Origin: SAR324 cluster bacterium | GTDB taxonomy: Bacteria > SAR324 > NAC60-12 | Reading direction: 5' to 3' | Assembly (NCBI GenBank): GCA_029245725.1 | Contig: JAQWOT010000332.1 | Coordinates: 1-35,173, forward strand | Length of the DNA stretch: 35,173 nt | In this document: positions 14,101-24,792 of the stretch, piece after piece | Layout: the number at the start of each line of letters is the position of its first letter | Position numbering within the stretch: the stretch's first letter is position 1 | The notes under the pieces: generated by a model | Told to the model about the DNA's origin: nothing | Seen by the model: only the letters and a program-made list of their open reading frames with translations | Databases searched by the model: none | Position numbers and translations under genes: made by a program

Positions 14101-15282
14101 ATGGATTTTACATTGGATGAAAAAACAGATGCCCAAGTTCTGAAACTTCGTCATTTTGTCAGAACGGAGCTGCATCCTCTGGAAGAAAAGGTAGAGGCGA
14201 AAGGTGAATTGGATGCTAACCTGGCGAGTGAGATTTTTGAAAAATCCAGAACTCAGGGCTTTTATGGCATGAATATTTCCGCAGAATATGGAGGAGGAGG
14301 CTTCAACGCAGTCCAGATGGTTTATCTGGAGCAAGAGATGGGGCAGACCACAGATCCACTGGTTCGCCGTGCCTTTGGGAATGTTTACGAAGTCCTGTTA
14401 GCTTGTAATGAGGCCCAGCGCCAGCAATGGTTGCTACCTTGTGTGAAAGGAGAAAGAACCTGTTCAATCGCGATGACGGAGCCTGATGCTGGATCGGACT
14501 CTGCAGGAATAACTGCGACAGCTAGGTCGGATGGAGATGGTTGGATTCTCAACGCTCACAAGTGCCCCGTAGGGGATGGTATGTTCTCCGACTTCTATGT
14601 TGTCTCAGCTCGTTCAGAGTATGTGGAAGGTTCTCGGGGAATTTCGTTGTTTTTGGTGGATAGATCCATGCCAGGAGTGGAGGTCGTTCGTGACATGCCG
14701 ATGATGGGCCTAAGAGGCTCCACGCATGCTGAGATCAAGTTTGATAACGTCAAACTGGGTCCTGAACATTTGCTCGGAGAGAGGGGAAGAGGCCTAAGCC
14801 TCCTGCTCTCAACAATCGGACGAATCCGCCTTTTTCACATCGGTGCAAGAGCCATTGGGATGGGTCGCCGAGTCTTGAAAATGATGACGGAAAGAGCCAA
14901 TCATCGTGAGCAGTTTGGCAAGCCGATTGGAGAGTTTCAAATGATTCAGCAAATGCTTGCTGATAGCCTGATCGAATTAAATTGTGCTCATCTTTTGGTT
15001 TTAGATGCTGCTTCCGAGATTGATCGTGGTCTGGATCCTCGTGAAAAAATCTCAATGGTGAAAATCAACTCTGCAGAGACACTCGGTAAAATTGCGGATC
15101 GAGCTGTCCAACTTTTTGGCGCCATGGGATACTGCAAAGACTTCCCCTTGGAGAGGATTTATCGCGACTGTCGGGTACTTCGTATCTACGATGGTACCTC
15201 GGAAATTCACCGAATGGTTGTCTCCAGAGGTCTCATGAAGAAAGGTGTGGACGCAATTCTTGGTAATCATCTCGCCAACTAA
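14101..15282 (+). CDS. Acyl-CoA dehydrogenase family protein
   Basis: 393 residues from ATG 14101, preceded by AGAGAGAAGAG; a TTG at 14074 would add nine residues. N-terminal helical, middle beta and C-terminal helical FAD domains are complete: AMTEPDAGSDS (124-134) contacts FAD and the acyl chain, REQFGKPIGEFQ and the C-terminal RIYDGTSEIHRM complete the site. The loop residue equivalent to MCAD Glu376 is Asp here. The helix that carries the isovaleryl-CoA-type Glu reads G240-RIRLFHIGAR and lacks it, so the catalytic base cannot be named, and desaturation is likely but not certain. FAD flavoprotein of the cytoplasm, normally coupled to ETF. Substrate unknown. The GRIR..H.G.R stretch faintly recalls ACAD10/11-type enzymes. 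Confidence 0.9.
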   Translation: MDFTLDEKTDAQVLKLRHFVRTELHPLEEKVEAKGELDANLASEIFEKSRTQGFYGMNISAEYGGGGFNAVQMVYLEQEMGQTTDPLVRRAFGNVYEVLLACNEAQRQQWLLPCVKGERTCSIAMTEPDAGSDSAGITATARSDGDGWILNAHKCPVGDGMFSDFYVVSARSEYVEGSRGISLFLVDRSMPGVEVVRDMPMMGLRGSTHAEIKFDNVKLGPEHLLGERGRGLSLLLSTIGRIRLFHIGARAIGMGRRVLKMMTERANHREQFGKPIGEFQMIQQMLADSLIELNCAHLLVLDAASEIDRGLDPREKISMVKINSAETLGKIADRAVQLFGAMGYCKDFPLERIYRDCRVLRIYDGTSEIHRMVVSRGLMKKGVDAILGNHLAN

Positions 15283-20838: not shown

Positions 20839-21579
20839 ATGGAACTGACCCTAACAGGCAAACGGGTACTGGTCACAGGCGCCTCGAGCGGATTGGGGCT
20901 TCATTTCGCTCAGATTATGGCCAAATCTGGTGCAAAAGTGACTCTGGCTGCGCGTAGGTTCAGCAAAGTTCAAGAAGCTTCAGAAGAAATCTGTATGGAT
21001 GGATATGTTGCGGAAGCCCTGGAGCTTGATGTGACAGATAATATTTCCGTGAAAAAGGCCTTTTCAGCCGATCCCTATGATGTCGTGATCAACAACGCTG
21101 GAATCAGTGGCTCGGGTAGGGCTATGGATATGAAGATTGAAGAATTTGAAAACGTTCTTCAAACCAATCTCACTGGCGTGTTTGCCGTGGCCCAAGCAGC
21201 TGCGCAGCAAATGTCATCTCGTGGTGGTTCGATCATCAACATTGCTTCAATCCTTGGTCTCCGGGTGGCTGTTCAGGTCTCTGCTTATGCTGTTTCAAAG
21301 GCATCGATAGTCCAGCTGACCAAGGCCCTTGCTTTGGAGTGGGCACGCCATCAGATCCGCGTTAATGCACTCTGCCCAGGCTACATTGAGACACCCTTCA
21401 ACAAAGCATTCCTCGAAAGTGAGGCTGGCCAGGCTTTGATCCGCCGAATTCCTCAGCGTCGATTGGGTCAACTTTCTGATCTGGATGCGCCACTTCTTCT
21501 GCTTGCCTCAGATGCCTCCGCCTACATGACTGGATCTGTACTGGTAGTGGATGGGGGTCACCTAGTTTCCAGCTTATAG
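20839..21579 (+). CDS. Short-chain dehydrogenase/reductase (SDR)
   Basis: 246 residues, classical SDR. Cofactor motif TGASSGLG (13-20), NNAG (85-88), catalytic S137 and Y150-x-x-x-K154, plus the C-terminal MTGSVLVVDGG. AARR at 37-40 at the end of the second strand, with Arg in place of Asp, suggests NADPH rather than NADH. First gene of the region E operon, 7 bp before the acyl-CoA dehydrogenase. In the levulinate (Lva) pathway an SDR, LvaD, reduces a 4-oxoacyl-CoA to the 4-hydroxyacyl-CoA; the same neighbours here suggest the same job. A 3-hydroxyacyl-CoA dehydrogenase role acting after the MaoC hydratase is the main alternative. Confidence 0.92.
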   Translation: MELTLTGKRVLVTGASSGLGLHFAQIMAKSGAKVTLAARRFSKVQEASEEICMDGYVAEALELDVTDNISVKKAFSADPYDVVINNAGISGSGRAMDMKIEEFENVLQTNLTGVFAVAQAAAQQMSSRGGSIINIASILGLRVAVQVSAYAVSKASIVQLTKALALEWARHQIRVNALCPGYIETPFNKAFLESEAGQALIRRIPQRRLGQLSDLDAPLLLLASDASAYMTGSVLVVDGGHLVSSL

Positions 21580-21586
21580 GATTGAC

Positions 21587-22792
21587 TTGGATTTCACGAT
21601 CTCACCAGAAATAGCCTCATTGCGTGATCGAATAGCTAGATTTGTCGATCAAGATGTCTTACCTGTTGAAACAGATCGCTCGACTTGGGACCCACATGAG
21701 AATATTGGGTATGAGGCACTTCAAACATTGAGACAAAAGGCTCGCCAAGAAGGACTATGGTGTCTGCAACTTTCCCCGGAAGCTGGAGGACTAGGCCTTG
21801 GTAAGATGGGAATGTCGGTCTGTTACGAAGCAATGAACAGGTCGATTTTTGGGCCAGTAGTTTTTAACTCTGCGGCTCCAGACGATGGCAATATGATGGT
21901 GCTTGAAAAACTGGGCACTGCTGAGCAGAAAGCTTACTGGTTAGCTCCCATTGCAGACGGTGTTGTGCGTTCAGCGTTTGTGATGACAGAGCCTGCCCCA
22001 GGTTCAGGTTCTGATCCAGGCATGATGCAAACATGGGCAAAAAGAGATGGCGATGATTACGTAATTGAAGGAAAGAAATGGTTCATTACAGGTGCTGAGG
22101 GGGCAGCCCATTTCATTTTGATCGCACGCACCTCTGAAGATGCTCGCCGAGGGCACACTGCTTTTTTGTTTCATCGTGATAACCCGGGTTGGGAAATCGT
22201 TCGCCGTATTCCGATTATGGGACCTGAGGAACACGGTGGCCATTGTGAATTGAATTTTAACGCGCTACGAATTCCCAAGGAGAATATTCTTTTAGAGGAA
22301 GGCCGTGGCCTGAAAGTTATCCAGACTAGGTTGGGTCCTGCAAGGCTCACTCACTGTATGCGCTGGCTTGGGCTAGCTAAACGGTGTGTTGAAATTGCCA
22401 GTGAATATGCAGTCCGCCGAGAAGGATTCGGAGTTAAATTGTTTGAGCGTGAGAGCGTCCAAATGATGCTGGGTGATCTTGCGATGCAGATCGAAGTAGG
22501 CCGAATGCTGGTCATGAAAGCTGCTTGGGAAATCGACCGCGGCGGCTTTGCACAGAGAGAGGTCTCCATGGCCAAGATCCAGGTTGCCAATCTGTTATCC
22601 AAGGCAGCAGATGTTGCCATTCAAATCAATGGGGCACGGGGCTACTCAAAAGACACTATTCTTGAGTGGATTTATCGCTATGCCCGTCAGGCCAGATTGG
22701 TGGATGGAGCTGATGAAGTGCATAAAATGGTGTTGAACGGGTATCTGGAGAAAGAAGGTAATGATTTCTGGAATTGGGGGGTCGGAGAGTGA
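21587..22792 (+). CDS. Acyl-CoA dehydrogenase of the ACAD10/ACAD11 (LvaC-like) type
   Basis: 401 residues from TTG 21587 (TAGGA upstream, 7 bp after the SDR stop). FAD-binding block MTEPAPGSGSD (133-143), WFITGAEGA and the C-terminal IYRYARQARLVDGADEVHKM are present. Two features point to the ACAD10/11 group: G250-PARLTHCMRWLG (250-262), where classical enzymes often have the catalytic-helix Glu or other residues, and D-G-A-D-E-V-H (373-379) in place of the Y-E-G-T loop. ACAD10/11 enzymes and LvaC act on 4-phosphoacyl-CoA, losing phosphate to give an enoyl-CoA. The stop overlaps the phosphotransferase start by one base (TGATG), so translation is coupled to the kinase that would make that substrate. 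Flavoprotein of the cytoplasm. Confidence 0.9.
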   Translation: MDFTISPEIASLRDRIARFVDQDVLPVETDRSTWDPHENIGYEALQTLRQKARQEGLWCLQLSPEAGGLGLGKMGMSVCYEAMNRSIFGPVVFNSAAPDDGNMMVLEKLGTAEQKAYWLAPIADGVVRSAFVMTEPAPGSGSDPGMMQTWAKRDGDDYVIEGKKWFITGAEGAAHFILIARTSEDARRGHTAFLFHRDNPGWEIVRRIPIMGPEEHGGHCELNFNALRIPKENILLEEGRGLKVIQTRLGPARLTHCMRWLGLAKRCVEIASEYAVRREGFGVKLFERESVQMMLGDLAMQIEVGRMLVMKAAWEIDRGGFAQREVSMAKIQVANLLSKAADVAIQINGARGYSKDTILEWIYRYARQARLVDGADEVHKMVLNGYLEKEGNDFWNWGVGE

Positions 22793-23835
22793 TGAAGGCC
22801 GATTTGAATGGTGAAGTGGATTTTAATGAGGAATCACTTGGGCGCTTTTTAACAGCAAGGCTTGGGGCTGATTGTGGAATATTTCAGTTGAGCAGAATCA
22901 GTGGAGGTCAATCAAATCCAACGTATTTCTTGAATTGGGGTGAGCAAAATCTAGTACTGAGAAAGCAACCGAATGGTCCAATCTTGAAAGGTGCCCATGC
23001 AGTTGACCGTGAATATAGAGTACTCGAGGTGCTTCACCTAACGTCTGTTCCTGTACCTGAGCCTGTCTTGTATTGTGCTGAGCCAGAGTTGCTGGGAACC
23101 CCCTTTTACCTGATGCAGCGAGTAGAGGGACGTGTGTTCACTGAGACTTCATTATCGGAGTTGCCAGCGGAGGAACGTACTCCGATTTGGATGGCTGTTG
23201 CCGAGACACTGGCCAGTCTTCATTCAATTCGGCCTGAGGAGGTCGGACTGGCTGATTATGGAAAACCAGGCAACTATTTCGAACGGCAAATCTCACGTTG
23301 GGTAAGGCAGTATCAGAACTCACCATCTAGACCCATTCAACCGATTGAGGATCTGTACGATTGGCTGTTGGGAAATCTACCAGCAGATGATGGCGCGGTT
23401 TCGCTGTGTCATGGAGATTTCCGTCTGGGAAACTTACTGTTTCACCCAACCGAAGTGAGAGTATCGGCAATTCTTGATTGGGAACTCTCTACATTGGGAC
23501 ACCCTCTAGCAGATCTTGGCTTTTGTTGTATGCCCTGGCATACCTCACCCGATGAATATGGCGGTCTGCTGGGTTTTGATCTGAATGAGCTTGCCTTACC
23601 AACCGAGGAAGATTTTGTAGGTCGGTACATGGCTTCTCTCAATCAAGTGTCAACACCTCAACCCTTTCATACTGCGTTTGCGCTTTACCGATTTGCAGTA
23701 ATCTTTGTTGGAATTGCAGATCGGGCCCGAGAAGGTAATGCAGCAGATCCCAAAGCAAAAACTCTTGGTCCTCTGGCGGAACACTTTGCAGTGAGGGGAC
23801 TGGAAATTTCAAAAGGAATTCCTCATGCTTTTTGA
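22792..23835 (+). CDS. ACAD11-type phosphotransferase (aminoglycoside phosphotransferase fold), probable 4-hydroxyacyl-CoA kinase
   Basis: 347 residues from ATG 22792, which overlaps the preceding TGA; GGAG lies upstream. The APH-fold kinase motifs are complete: nucleotide-binding loop SGGQSNPTY (38-46), ATP lysine K58 in LRKQP, catalytic loop H207-GDFRLGN214 and metal Asp in LDWE (D229). YFERQISRWVRQY (162-174) is conserved in the ACAD10/11-like kinases and in LvaA, not in antibiotic kinases. These phosphorylate the 4-hydroxyl of a 4-hydroxyacyl-CoA so that the partner dehydrogenase can eliminate phosphate. In mammals kinase and dehydrogenase are fused in one protein; here they are separate but translationally coupled. 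No LvaB-like small partner is seen. Antibiotic resistance is unlikely. Confidence 0.88.
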   Translation: MKADLNGEVDFNEESLGRFLTARLGADCGIFQLSRISGGQSNPTYFLNWGEQNLVLRKQPNGPILKGAHAVDREYRVLEVLHLTSVPVPEPVLYCAEPELLGTPFYLMQRVEGRVFTETSLSELPAEERTPIWMAVAETLASLHSIRPEEVGLADYGKPGNYFERQISRWVRQYQNSPSRPIQPIEDLYDWLLGNLPADDGAVSLCHGDFRLGNLLFHPTEVRVSAILDWELSTLGHPLADLGFCCMPWHTSPDEYGGLLGFDLNELALPTEEDFVGRYMASLNQVSTPQPFHTAFALYRFAVIFVGIADRAREGNAADPKAKTLGPLAEHFAVRGLEISKGIPHAF

Positions 23836-23839
23836 ATTG

Positions 23840-23884
23840 AATTTCTATTTTAGAAATTGATTTCCTGTAAGGACAATTCTTACA
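23840..23884. repeat. Two adjacent inverted repeats between the kinase and MaoC genes
   Basis: AATTTCTA-ttt-TAGAAATT (23840-23858) is a perfect 8-bp repeat with a 3-nt loop; TGTAAG-gacaatt-CTTACA (23866-23884) is a 6-bp repeat with a 7-nt spacer. Both lie in the 88-bp gap, the only wide gap in the region E gene run. They could be a weak intercistronic RNA structure or an operator for separate MaoC transcription. Confidence 0.4.
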
Positions 23885-23923
23885 CATAAAACATCTAAAA
23901 GAAGCCCCAAGTGGAAAGAAGGA

Positions 23924-24367
23924 ATGATTGACAAAAACTTGATTGGCTATTCCTTTGAGCCTGTTCAGCTTGCCGTCGAGGCTGGACGACTAAAGTTTGT
24001 GGCTAAAGCGCTGGGCCTAACAGATCCAGTTTACAGTGATGCTGATGCAGCCTGCGCTGAGGGTTATTCAGATCTGCTCGCTCCACCGACTTTCCCATTT
24101 ATGCTGGAGTCGGATGCTTTGGATTTAGAGGCGCTTTGTGAATTTTTTGGGCAGAACGTAAAGCACTTGCTGCATGCAGAGCAAAAGTTTACCTATCACC
24201 AGCTGATCTGTGCAGGTGATCAGATTACATTCGTCAAAACCATCCGGGAAATTTTCGATAAGAAAAATGAACAACTGGAGTTTGTTGTTTCAGATAACAC
24301 GCTGACCAATCAGAATGATATCCTTTGTGTTGAGAGTCAGACTACCTACGTCTTCAGAAATGCTTAG
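23924..24367 (+). CDS. MaoC-like N-terminal (FAS1-type dehydratase) hot-dog protein, noncatalytic partner
   Basis: 147 residues. MIDKNLIGYSFEPVQLAVEAGRLKFVAKALG and APPTFPFMLE are the conserved blocks of the MaoC_dehydrat_N family, a hot-dog fold that binds the acyl-CoA. The D-x-N-P-x-H catalytic motif of R-specific hydratases is absent, as in structural subunits of HadAB- or ChsH1/ChsH2-like heterodimers. It stands 14 bp before the catalytic MaoC gene, so the two should form a split, two-chain hydratase of the cytoplasm. In this operon it would hydrate the enoyl-CoA made by the kinase/dehydrogenase pair. Start 23924 fits the usual MID N-terminus. Confidence 0.85.
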   Translation: MIDKNLIGYSFEPVQLAVEAGRLKFVAKALGLTDPVYSDADAACAEGYSDLLAPPTFPFMLESDALDLEALCEFFGQNVKHLLHAEQKFTYHQLICAGDQITFVKTIREIFDKKNEQLEFVVSDNTLTNQNDILCVESQTTYVFRNA

Positions 24368-24381
24368 AGAGTTTTGAGAAT

Positions 24382-24792
24382 ATGCCCAAAGCTGCAGATT
24401 GGAACATTGGAGACGAACTTCCTGTGATGACAACTGAGCCACTCACAAGGCATGCTCTCGCCTTGTACTGCGGCGCTTCAGGAGATCACAATCCAATTCA
24501 TGTTGATTTTGATTACGCGAAAGAGGCAGGGCTGGATGATGTGATTGCGCATGGGATGCTCTCGATGGGTTACCTTGGCAAGATGTTAACTAATTGGATT
24601 TCACAAAAGCAGATACGCAGCTATCAGGCCCGCTTTACTGCAATGATGCACATTGGGGAGGGTATTTGCTGTTCAGGTCGAATTACAAATAAATGGGAAG
24701 AAGACGGGAGGTGGTTGGCGAGGATTGAACTGTTTGCAGATACCCCGCAAGCCCAAACAATCATTGGAGAAGCAGAGGTTCTTTTGGATTAA
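24382..24792 (+). CDS. MaoC-family enoyl-CoA hydratase, catalytic subunit
   Basis: 136 residues, single hot-dog domain. The hydratase-2 motif SGD35-HNPIH40-VDFDYA gives the catalytic Asp and His of R-specific enoyl-CoA hydratases, and VIAHGMLSMGYLG is the following conserved helix. It adds water to trans-2-enoyl-CoA to give R-3-hydroxyacyl-CoA. Paired with the noncatalytic MaoC-like protein 14 bp upstream, and last in the run of genes starting at the SDR. It converges with the DUF6279 lipoprotein gene, 29 bp apart. Confidence 0.9.
   Translation: MPKAADWNIGDELPVMTTEPLTRHALALYCGASGDHNPIHVDFDYAKEAGLDDVIAHGMLSMGYLGKMLTNWISQKQIRSYQARFTAMMHIGEGICCSGRITNKWEEDGRWLARIELFADTPQAQTIIGEAEVLLD

Follow-up and report, generated by a model that had tools for sequence, protein, structure and literature searches.

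Organization of the operon

The window analysed here, a stretch of 35,173 nt from the genome of a SAR324 cluster bacterium, contains at positions 20839-24792 an operon of five genes, all on the + strand, that encode a short-chain dehydrogenase/reductase (SDR), an acyl-CoA dehydrogenase (ACAD), an APH-fold kinase and two MaoC-type proteins. Sequence comparisons make it quite probable that these genes form a split, ACAD11-like module by which short 4-oxo or 4-hydroxy acids are broken down. As a reference for the levulinate (lva) operon, whose content was taken from PMC6692424 and PMC9628823, we used a Pseudomonas peradeniyensis locus (L071) picked by its composition (sigma-54-type regulator, kinase, DUF6285, ACAD, SDR and ligase), which matches the published order PP_2790 to PP_2795 (PMC6692424). 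The genes and key residues are as follows (support values here and below are SH-aLRT values).

20839..21579, + strand: SDR of the LvaD family (52% identity to the LvaD reference; LvaD clade, support 97)
21587..22792, + strand: ACAD of the ACAD10/11/LvaC superfamily, with a TTG start (domains, structure matches, tree, residues)
22328..22363, + strand: R248 and the HCMR motif (H256-R259) of the ACAD, equivalent by alignment to R626, H634 and R637 of mouse ACAD11
22703..22705, + strand: D373 of the ACAD, equivalent by alignment to the catalytic D753 of ACAD11
22792..23835, + strand: APH-fold kinase of the ACAD10/11 type (domains, structure matches, 30-row clade with support 96)
23410..23433, + strand: kinase catalytic loop HGDFRLGN, with D209 and N214 equivalent to D220 and N225 of ACAD11
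23924..24367, + strand: MaoC1, putative FAS1_DH/HadA-type non-catalytic half of a two-gene hot-dog hydratase (domains, HadA match)
24382..24792, + strand: MaoC2, putative HadB-type catalytic half with a GDHNPIH motif (D35, H40) (domains, HadB alignment)

The initial annotation, made from the sequence without database searches, had placed these five genes correctly, as judged by the open reading frames (ORFs) and by Pfam and NCBIfam assignments, which were unambiguous and returned the named families for all five proteins. The motifs it had listed (GPARLTHCMR, DGADEVH, HGDFRLGN and LDWE) are all found in the translations, and the kinase ATG at 22792 does overlap the ACAD stop codon as TGATG; the ORF tool instead lists an upstream TTG at 22774, a start that is probably too long. 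The kinase and MaoC1 are separated by 88 bases without a strong terminator, and promoter and terminator motif matches showed no excess over shuffled sequence.

The dehydrogenase represents a third branch of the ACAD10/11/LvaC superfamily

The closest solved structures to the operon ACAD are those of ACAD11 (8v3u, 1e-72), as against about 2e-45 for the best ordinary ACADs. In mouse ACAD11, the HCMR motif with its upstream arginine (R626, H634 and R637) and the catalytic D753 are particular to ACAD10/11 and LvaC (PMC12440821). All four residues are kept in the operon ACAD; HCMR and the upstream arginine are missing from two ordinary ACADs in the same alignment, and a second ACAD in the window, where the four positions read T, H, R and D, likewise has no HCMR motif. 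In a quick tree of 103 rows, for which SH-aLRT was the only support calculated, the HCMR superfamily formed one group of 98 rows (support 100) with the ordinary ACADs outside. Clustering with ordinary short-chain ACADs had been set in advance as the refuting test, and the operon enzyme groups apart from them. The superfamily falls into three main parts, whose relative order the tree does not resolve: one containing LvaC, a second containing mouse ACAD11 together with many further sequences, and a separate 20-row branch (support 100) that holds the operon ACAD, which is 42% identical to the LvaC reference and 38% to ACAD11. The earlier description of a split ACAD10/11- or LvaC-like dehydrogenase therefore stands as to the superfamily-specific residues and grouping, with the correction that the protein is neither LvaC nor ACAD10/11 proper. 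Its residues and position suggest that it is probably a 4-phosphoacyl-CoA phosphate-eliminating enzyme.

The survey also yielded observations on the wider superfamily. Two loci (L038 and L055) carry an ACAD of the same branch with an LvaA-type kinase and LvaB instead of an ACAD10/11-type kinase; the kinase has therefore been swapped within this branch. Pseudomonas putida GM4FR (L109 8001-9230) and other Pseudomonas loci encode ACAD11-type HCMR dehydrogenases that are 58% identical to mouse ACAD11; in the flanks retrieved for these loci no kinase was detected near the dehydrogenase gene, so the partner kinase must lie elsewhere. The identity of LvaC to ACAD10 and ACAD11 has been given as 62% and 56% (PMC11342911), unlike the 35% identity (50% similarity) that we obtained between the LvaC reference (L071 8001-9173) and mouse ACAD11.

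The kinase is of the ACAD10/11 type and is not associated with LvaB

The closest solved structures to the kinase are 3dxp (7e-80) and the ACAD11 kinase domain (6e-64). In agreement with the ACAD10/11-like operon of the initial annotation, the protein is of the ACAD10/11 type: the 30-row clade to which it belongs includes the mouse ACAD11 kinase domain and 3dxp, and is separate from a nine-row LvaA clade (support 100). It is 38% identical to mouse ACAD11 and 28% to LvaA. Beyond the catalytic loop, R165 aligns with R176 of ACAD11, and R73 lies beside the alpha-C glutamate, the position described for R86 in PMC12440821, although this numbering is approximate, as the PDB-chain count misses 86. Both of these CoA-contact arginines are conserved in the operon kinase and missing in LvaA. 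The operon kinase is thus a probable 4-hydroxyacyl-CoA kinase, as predicted from its clade and residues.

An iterated LvaB profile found LvaB at 9 of 9 loci with an LvaA-type kinase and at 0 of 55 other kinase loci, a strong association, though not 64 independent cases, since the loci share ancestry. This suggests that LvaB is the partner of only one kinase type. An LvaA homologue without LvaB, reported in Pseudomonas citronellolis LA18T, is an exception to the association (PMC6692424), and ACAD10/11 work without LvaB (PMC11342911, PMC12440821). No LvaB was found among the operon genes, which were inspected for it, the search not extending to the whole host genome; the operon lacks it because its kinase is not of the LvaA type. 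The absence of LvaB had been taken to set the operon's composition apart from the known lva set, and this argument for novelty is rejected. The mechanism proposed alongside it, phosphorylation followed by elimination as in ACAD10/11 and the Lva route, is well supported by the residues and tree of the ACAD and by the clades of the kinase and SDR.

The SDR and the MaoC pair

The SDR falls in an LvaD clade of 24 rows, in line with its earlier assignment as a 4-oxoacyl-CoA-type reductase partner, and adjoins the ACAD in most members of the operon ACAD's branch. These relationships make it a probable 4-oxoacyl-CoA reductase. An AARR stretch after the second strand is an NADP(H)-type motif and suggests that NADP(H) is used; LvaD reduces levulinyl-CoA with NADH or NADPH (PMC6692424).

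Both MaoC-type genes that had been annotated are present, and their roles can now be distinguished. D35 and H40 of MaoC2 align with the catalytic D-x4-H of HadB, so that MaoC2 is probably the catalytic half of an (R)-specific enoyl-CoA hydratase. MaoC1 lacks the catalytic motif; it matches HadA and, in the domain search, also the N-terminal half of the MFE-2 hydratase. Throughout a sister genus within the family, relatives of MaoC1 at 52-58% identity are followed by MaoC2 and a CaiB/BaiF-type CoA-transferase; the pair lies downstream of the kinase only in the window's genus. The pair is native to the host's family, was absent from the donor operon and became part of the cluster in this genus alone. 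In the sister genus, the MaoC1-MaoC2-CoA-transferase arrangement (L138 9718-11800 and equivalents in L139-L141) lies in conserved surroundings, with rpoN-like and ABC ATPase genes nearby.

The kinase-MaoC1-MaoC2 order is kept in three species of the window's genus. In a fourth species (G003, L137 9028-10640) the locus is degenerate: a kinase fragment, MaoC1 and MaoC2 all contain stop codons, and neither the SDR nor the ACAD was recovered from this contig, in which 586 positions are N. Two further genomes (G004 and G005) have no match to the operon ACAD or to MaoC1. The pair has therefore been kept and lost together with the core, which supports a joint function, on the basis of six related and partly incomplete genomes. 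Of the "dedicated" hydratase envisaged in the initial annotation, the HadB-type catalytic half and the co-retention with the core hold up, with the amendment that the pair is native and did not come from the donor operon. The pair may plausibly have a dedicated role.

Origin of the SDR-ACAD-kinase core

Clusters of the form SDR-ACAD-(ligase)-kinase are the closest relatives of the core. They lie on plasmids as well as chromosomes, in Rhodobacterales, Hyphomicrobiales and other groups, and their ACADs are 61-75% identical to that of the operon; genes in the GC-rich relatives were located by tblastn. The operon ACAD, kinase and SDR each nest among Rhodobacterales sequences in their three trees, which points to horizontal acquisition of the core from Rhodobacterales relatives among the marine alphaproteobacteria, with clusters of this kind as the likely donors. 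GC content (45-51%, like other genes of the window) is uninformative on transfer. Contamination of the assembly is unlikely, as the operon recurs, with the same flanking genes and an ACAD of about 94% identity, in two further genomes of the genus.

In Sulfitobacter, the cluster continues into co-directional genes for a TRAP transporter and faces a thiolase gene annotated as bktB; the La 6 plasmid has TRAP, thiolase and enoyl-CoA hydratase genes near its cluster. The relatives' clusters often include an acyl-CoA ligase, and no MaoC neighbour was found at those of the alphaproteobacteria. TRAP, thiolase and ligase genes in these positions fit a pathway that imports a small acid and breaks it down.

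The host genome lacks a detectable electron-transfer flavoprotein

The host genome (4.4 Mb, 99% complete, 407 contigs) contains only two ACADs, both in the window, and gave no match to an electron-transfer flavoprotein (ETF). ETF was found in 0 of the six genomes sampled from the genus (G000-G005, 68-99% complete), although most genomes of the family gave a match when searched in the same way. Loss of ETF across the genus is likely but not certain, and suggests a genus-wide loss of conventional beta-oxidation. There was likewise no credible match in the host genome to a 3HCDH-family 3-hydroxyacyl-CoA dehydrogenase, only marginal partial matches to 3HCDH_N. The second ACAD (14101-15282, + strand), which has an aspartate at the catalytic-base position, is kept in four of the six genomes and must work without ETF or use another acceptor; the absence of ETF alone is therefore no proof that the operon ACAD is ETF-free. 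The genome also encodes an intact acetyl-CoA acetyltransferase adjoining an acetate-CoA ligase, and a BktB-like thiolase (L161 355-1113; contig G000:C272) whose N-terminal third is missing in frame at the contig end and which has a stop near its C-terminus; either this gene is broken or the assembly is in error.

Proposed pathway and alternatives

In the proposed pathway, the LvaD-type SDR would reduce a 4-oxoacyl-CoA to the 4-hydroxyacyl-CoA, and the kinase would use ATP to place a phosphate on the 4-hydroxyl. The HCMR-type ACAD would then eliminate the phosphate to give a 2-enoyl-CoA, its FAD being reduced only transiently and passing no electrons to ETF. MaoC1-MaoC2 would hydrate this product to a 3-hydroxyacyl-CoA, probably the R form, whose breakdown could then be completed by an SDR-type dehydrogenase and a thiolase encoded at other loci of the genome. 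We infer the substrate, its chain length, the stereochemistry and the MaoC step. No electron acceptor has to be supplied for ACAD10/11 to form 2-enoyl-CoA from 4-phosphoacyl-CoA, and their flavin seems to cycle in the course of the reaction itself (PMC12440821); the lack of a detectable ETF in the genus fits a redox-neutral, phosphate-eliminating ACAD of this kind.

Several points weigh against the split ACAD11-like module with its MaoC step. To our knowledge, no member of the third ACAD branch has been characterised. No acyl-CoA ligase lies within 20839-24792, and the AMP-binding proteins of the host are all less than 30% identical to LvaE. The genus assemblies are fragmented, the sister genus has the MaoC pair before a CoA-transferase and without the module, and the host genome encodes two crotonase-type (ECH_1) hydratases. 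The last two facts also favor the idea that MaoC1-MaoC2 form a native unit of their own that just happens to lie downstream, the module being SDR-ACAD-kinase and a crotonase elsewhere hydrating the enoyl-CoA; the 88-base gap after the kinase and the lack of a MaoC neighbour in the alphaproteobacterial relatives point the same way. We think this doubtful, while granting it a substantial chance, given the gene order conserved in three species, the shared decay in G003, the joint absence from G004 and G005, and the detection of no MaoC_dehydratas-type gene in the host genome outside the pair.

Unlikely, too, is an order of steps in which the operon starts at a 4-hydroxyacyl-CoA and the SDR acts last, oxidising the (R)-3-hydroxyacyl-CoA that MaoC1-MaoC2 would form, such that the SDR and MaoC halves would resemble peroxisomal MFE-2 beside a split ACAD11. 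MaoC-type hydratases yield (R)-3-hydroxyacyl-CoA, for which an SDR would be needed in a genome with no credible 3HCDH, and the match of MaoC1 to MFE-2 agrees with this arrangement. The SDR groups with LvaD, however, and in many genomes adjoins the ACAD and kinase without a nearby MaoC gene, which identifies the kinase/ACAD step as its conserved partner. That the ACAD is an ordinary short acyl-CoA dehydrogenase and the kinase acts on something unrelated is highly improbable. Pfam reports just the general ACAD and APH domains for the two proteins, as this would predict, but the tree, HCMR and R248 set the ACAD outside the ordinary enzymes and largely refute the idea; moreover, no ETF was found to accept its electrons, and ACAD and kinase occur together in most genomes of the branch.

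Returning to the split module with its MaoC step, the operon is a new combination of a third-branch ACAD, an ACAD10/11-type kinase, an LvaD-type SDR and a native MaoC pair in a host apparently without ETF. We put forward, with slightly less than even confidence, the broader view that a genus without ETF, 3HCDH and nearly all ACADs burns short 4-oxo or 4-hydroxy acids through a horizontally acquired third-branch ACAD that can do without an electron acceptor and a recruited native MaoC pair, so that oxidation would run to completion with no net flavin dehydrogenation step. The mechanism of ACAD10/11, in which FAD would be reduced and re-oxidised in one cycle without ETF, is still unsettled, and a genus that keeps such an ACAD with no detectable ETF puts this mechanism to a natural test. 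The survey divides the enzyme family into three ACAD branches and at least two kinase types, and the unfused bacterial versions are on offer for structural and mechanistic work. In practical terms, the operon could serve as a short module routing levulinate-type or 4-hydroxy acids to 3-hydroxyacyl-CoA.

Comparison with known systems

Like the lva operon of Pseudomonas putida (LvaA-LvaE), the operon combines an LvaD-clade SDR, an HCMR-type ACAD and an APH-fold kinase, with the same predicted chemistry; it differs in its ACAD10/11-type kinase, the lack of LvaB and of an LvaE-type ligase within the operon, the separate branch of its ACAD and the added MaoC pair. With mammalian ACAD10 and ACAD11 it shares a kinase of the same clade and an ACAD with the same arginine, HCMR and catalytic aspartate, and would carry out the same two steps, yet kinase and ACAD are two genes rather than a fusion, the ACAD is of another branch, and SDR and MaoC genes lie alongside.

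HadA/HadB and the MaoC heteromers of peroxisomal hydratase 2 (MFE-2) offer a parallel for the downstream genes, in that MaoC1 resembles HadA and MaoC2 resembles HadB with its catalytic D and H; the similarity is weak (E ~1e-7 and ~1e-19), and here the genes are free-standing and linked in the genome to a predicted 4-hydroxyacyl-CoA module. The clusters of Rhodobacterales, Hyphomicrobiales and others (for example in Pseudooceanicola, Sulfitobacter and Mesorhizobium), for which we know of no functional study, contain the direct relatives of the SDR, ACAD and kinase in the same gene order. Unlike the operon described here, they often have a ligase between ACAD and kinase, a divergent TetR gene and TRAP or thiolase genes nearby, and they lack the MaoC pair.

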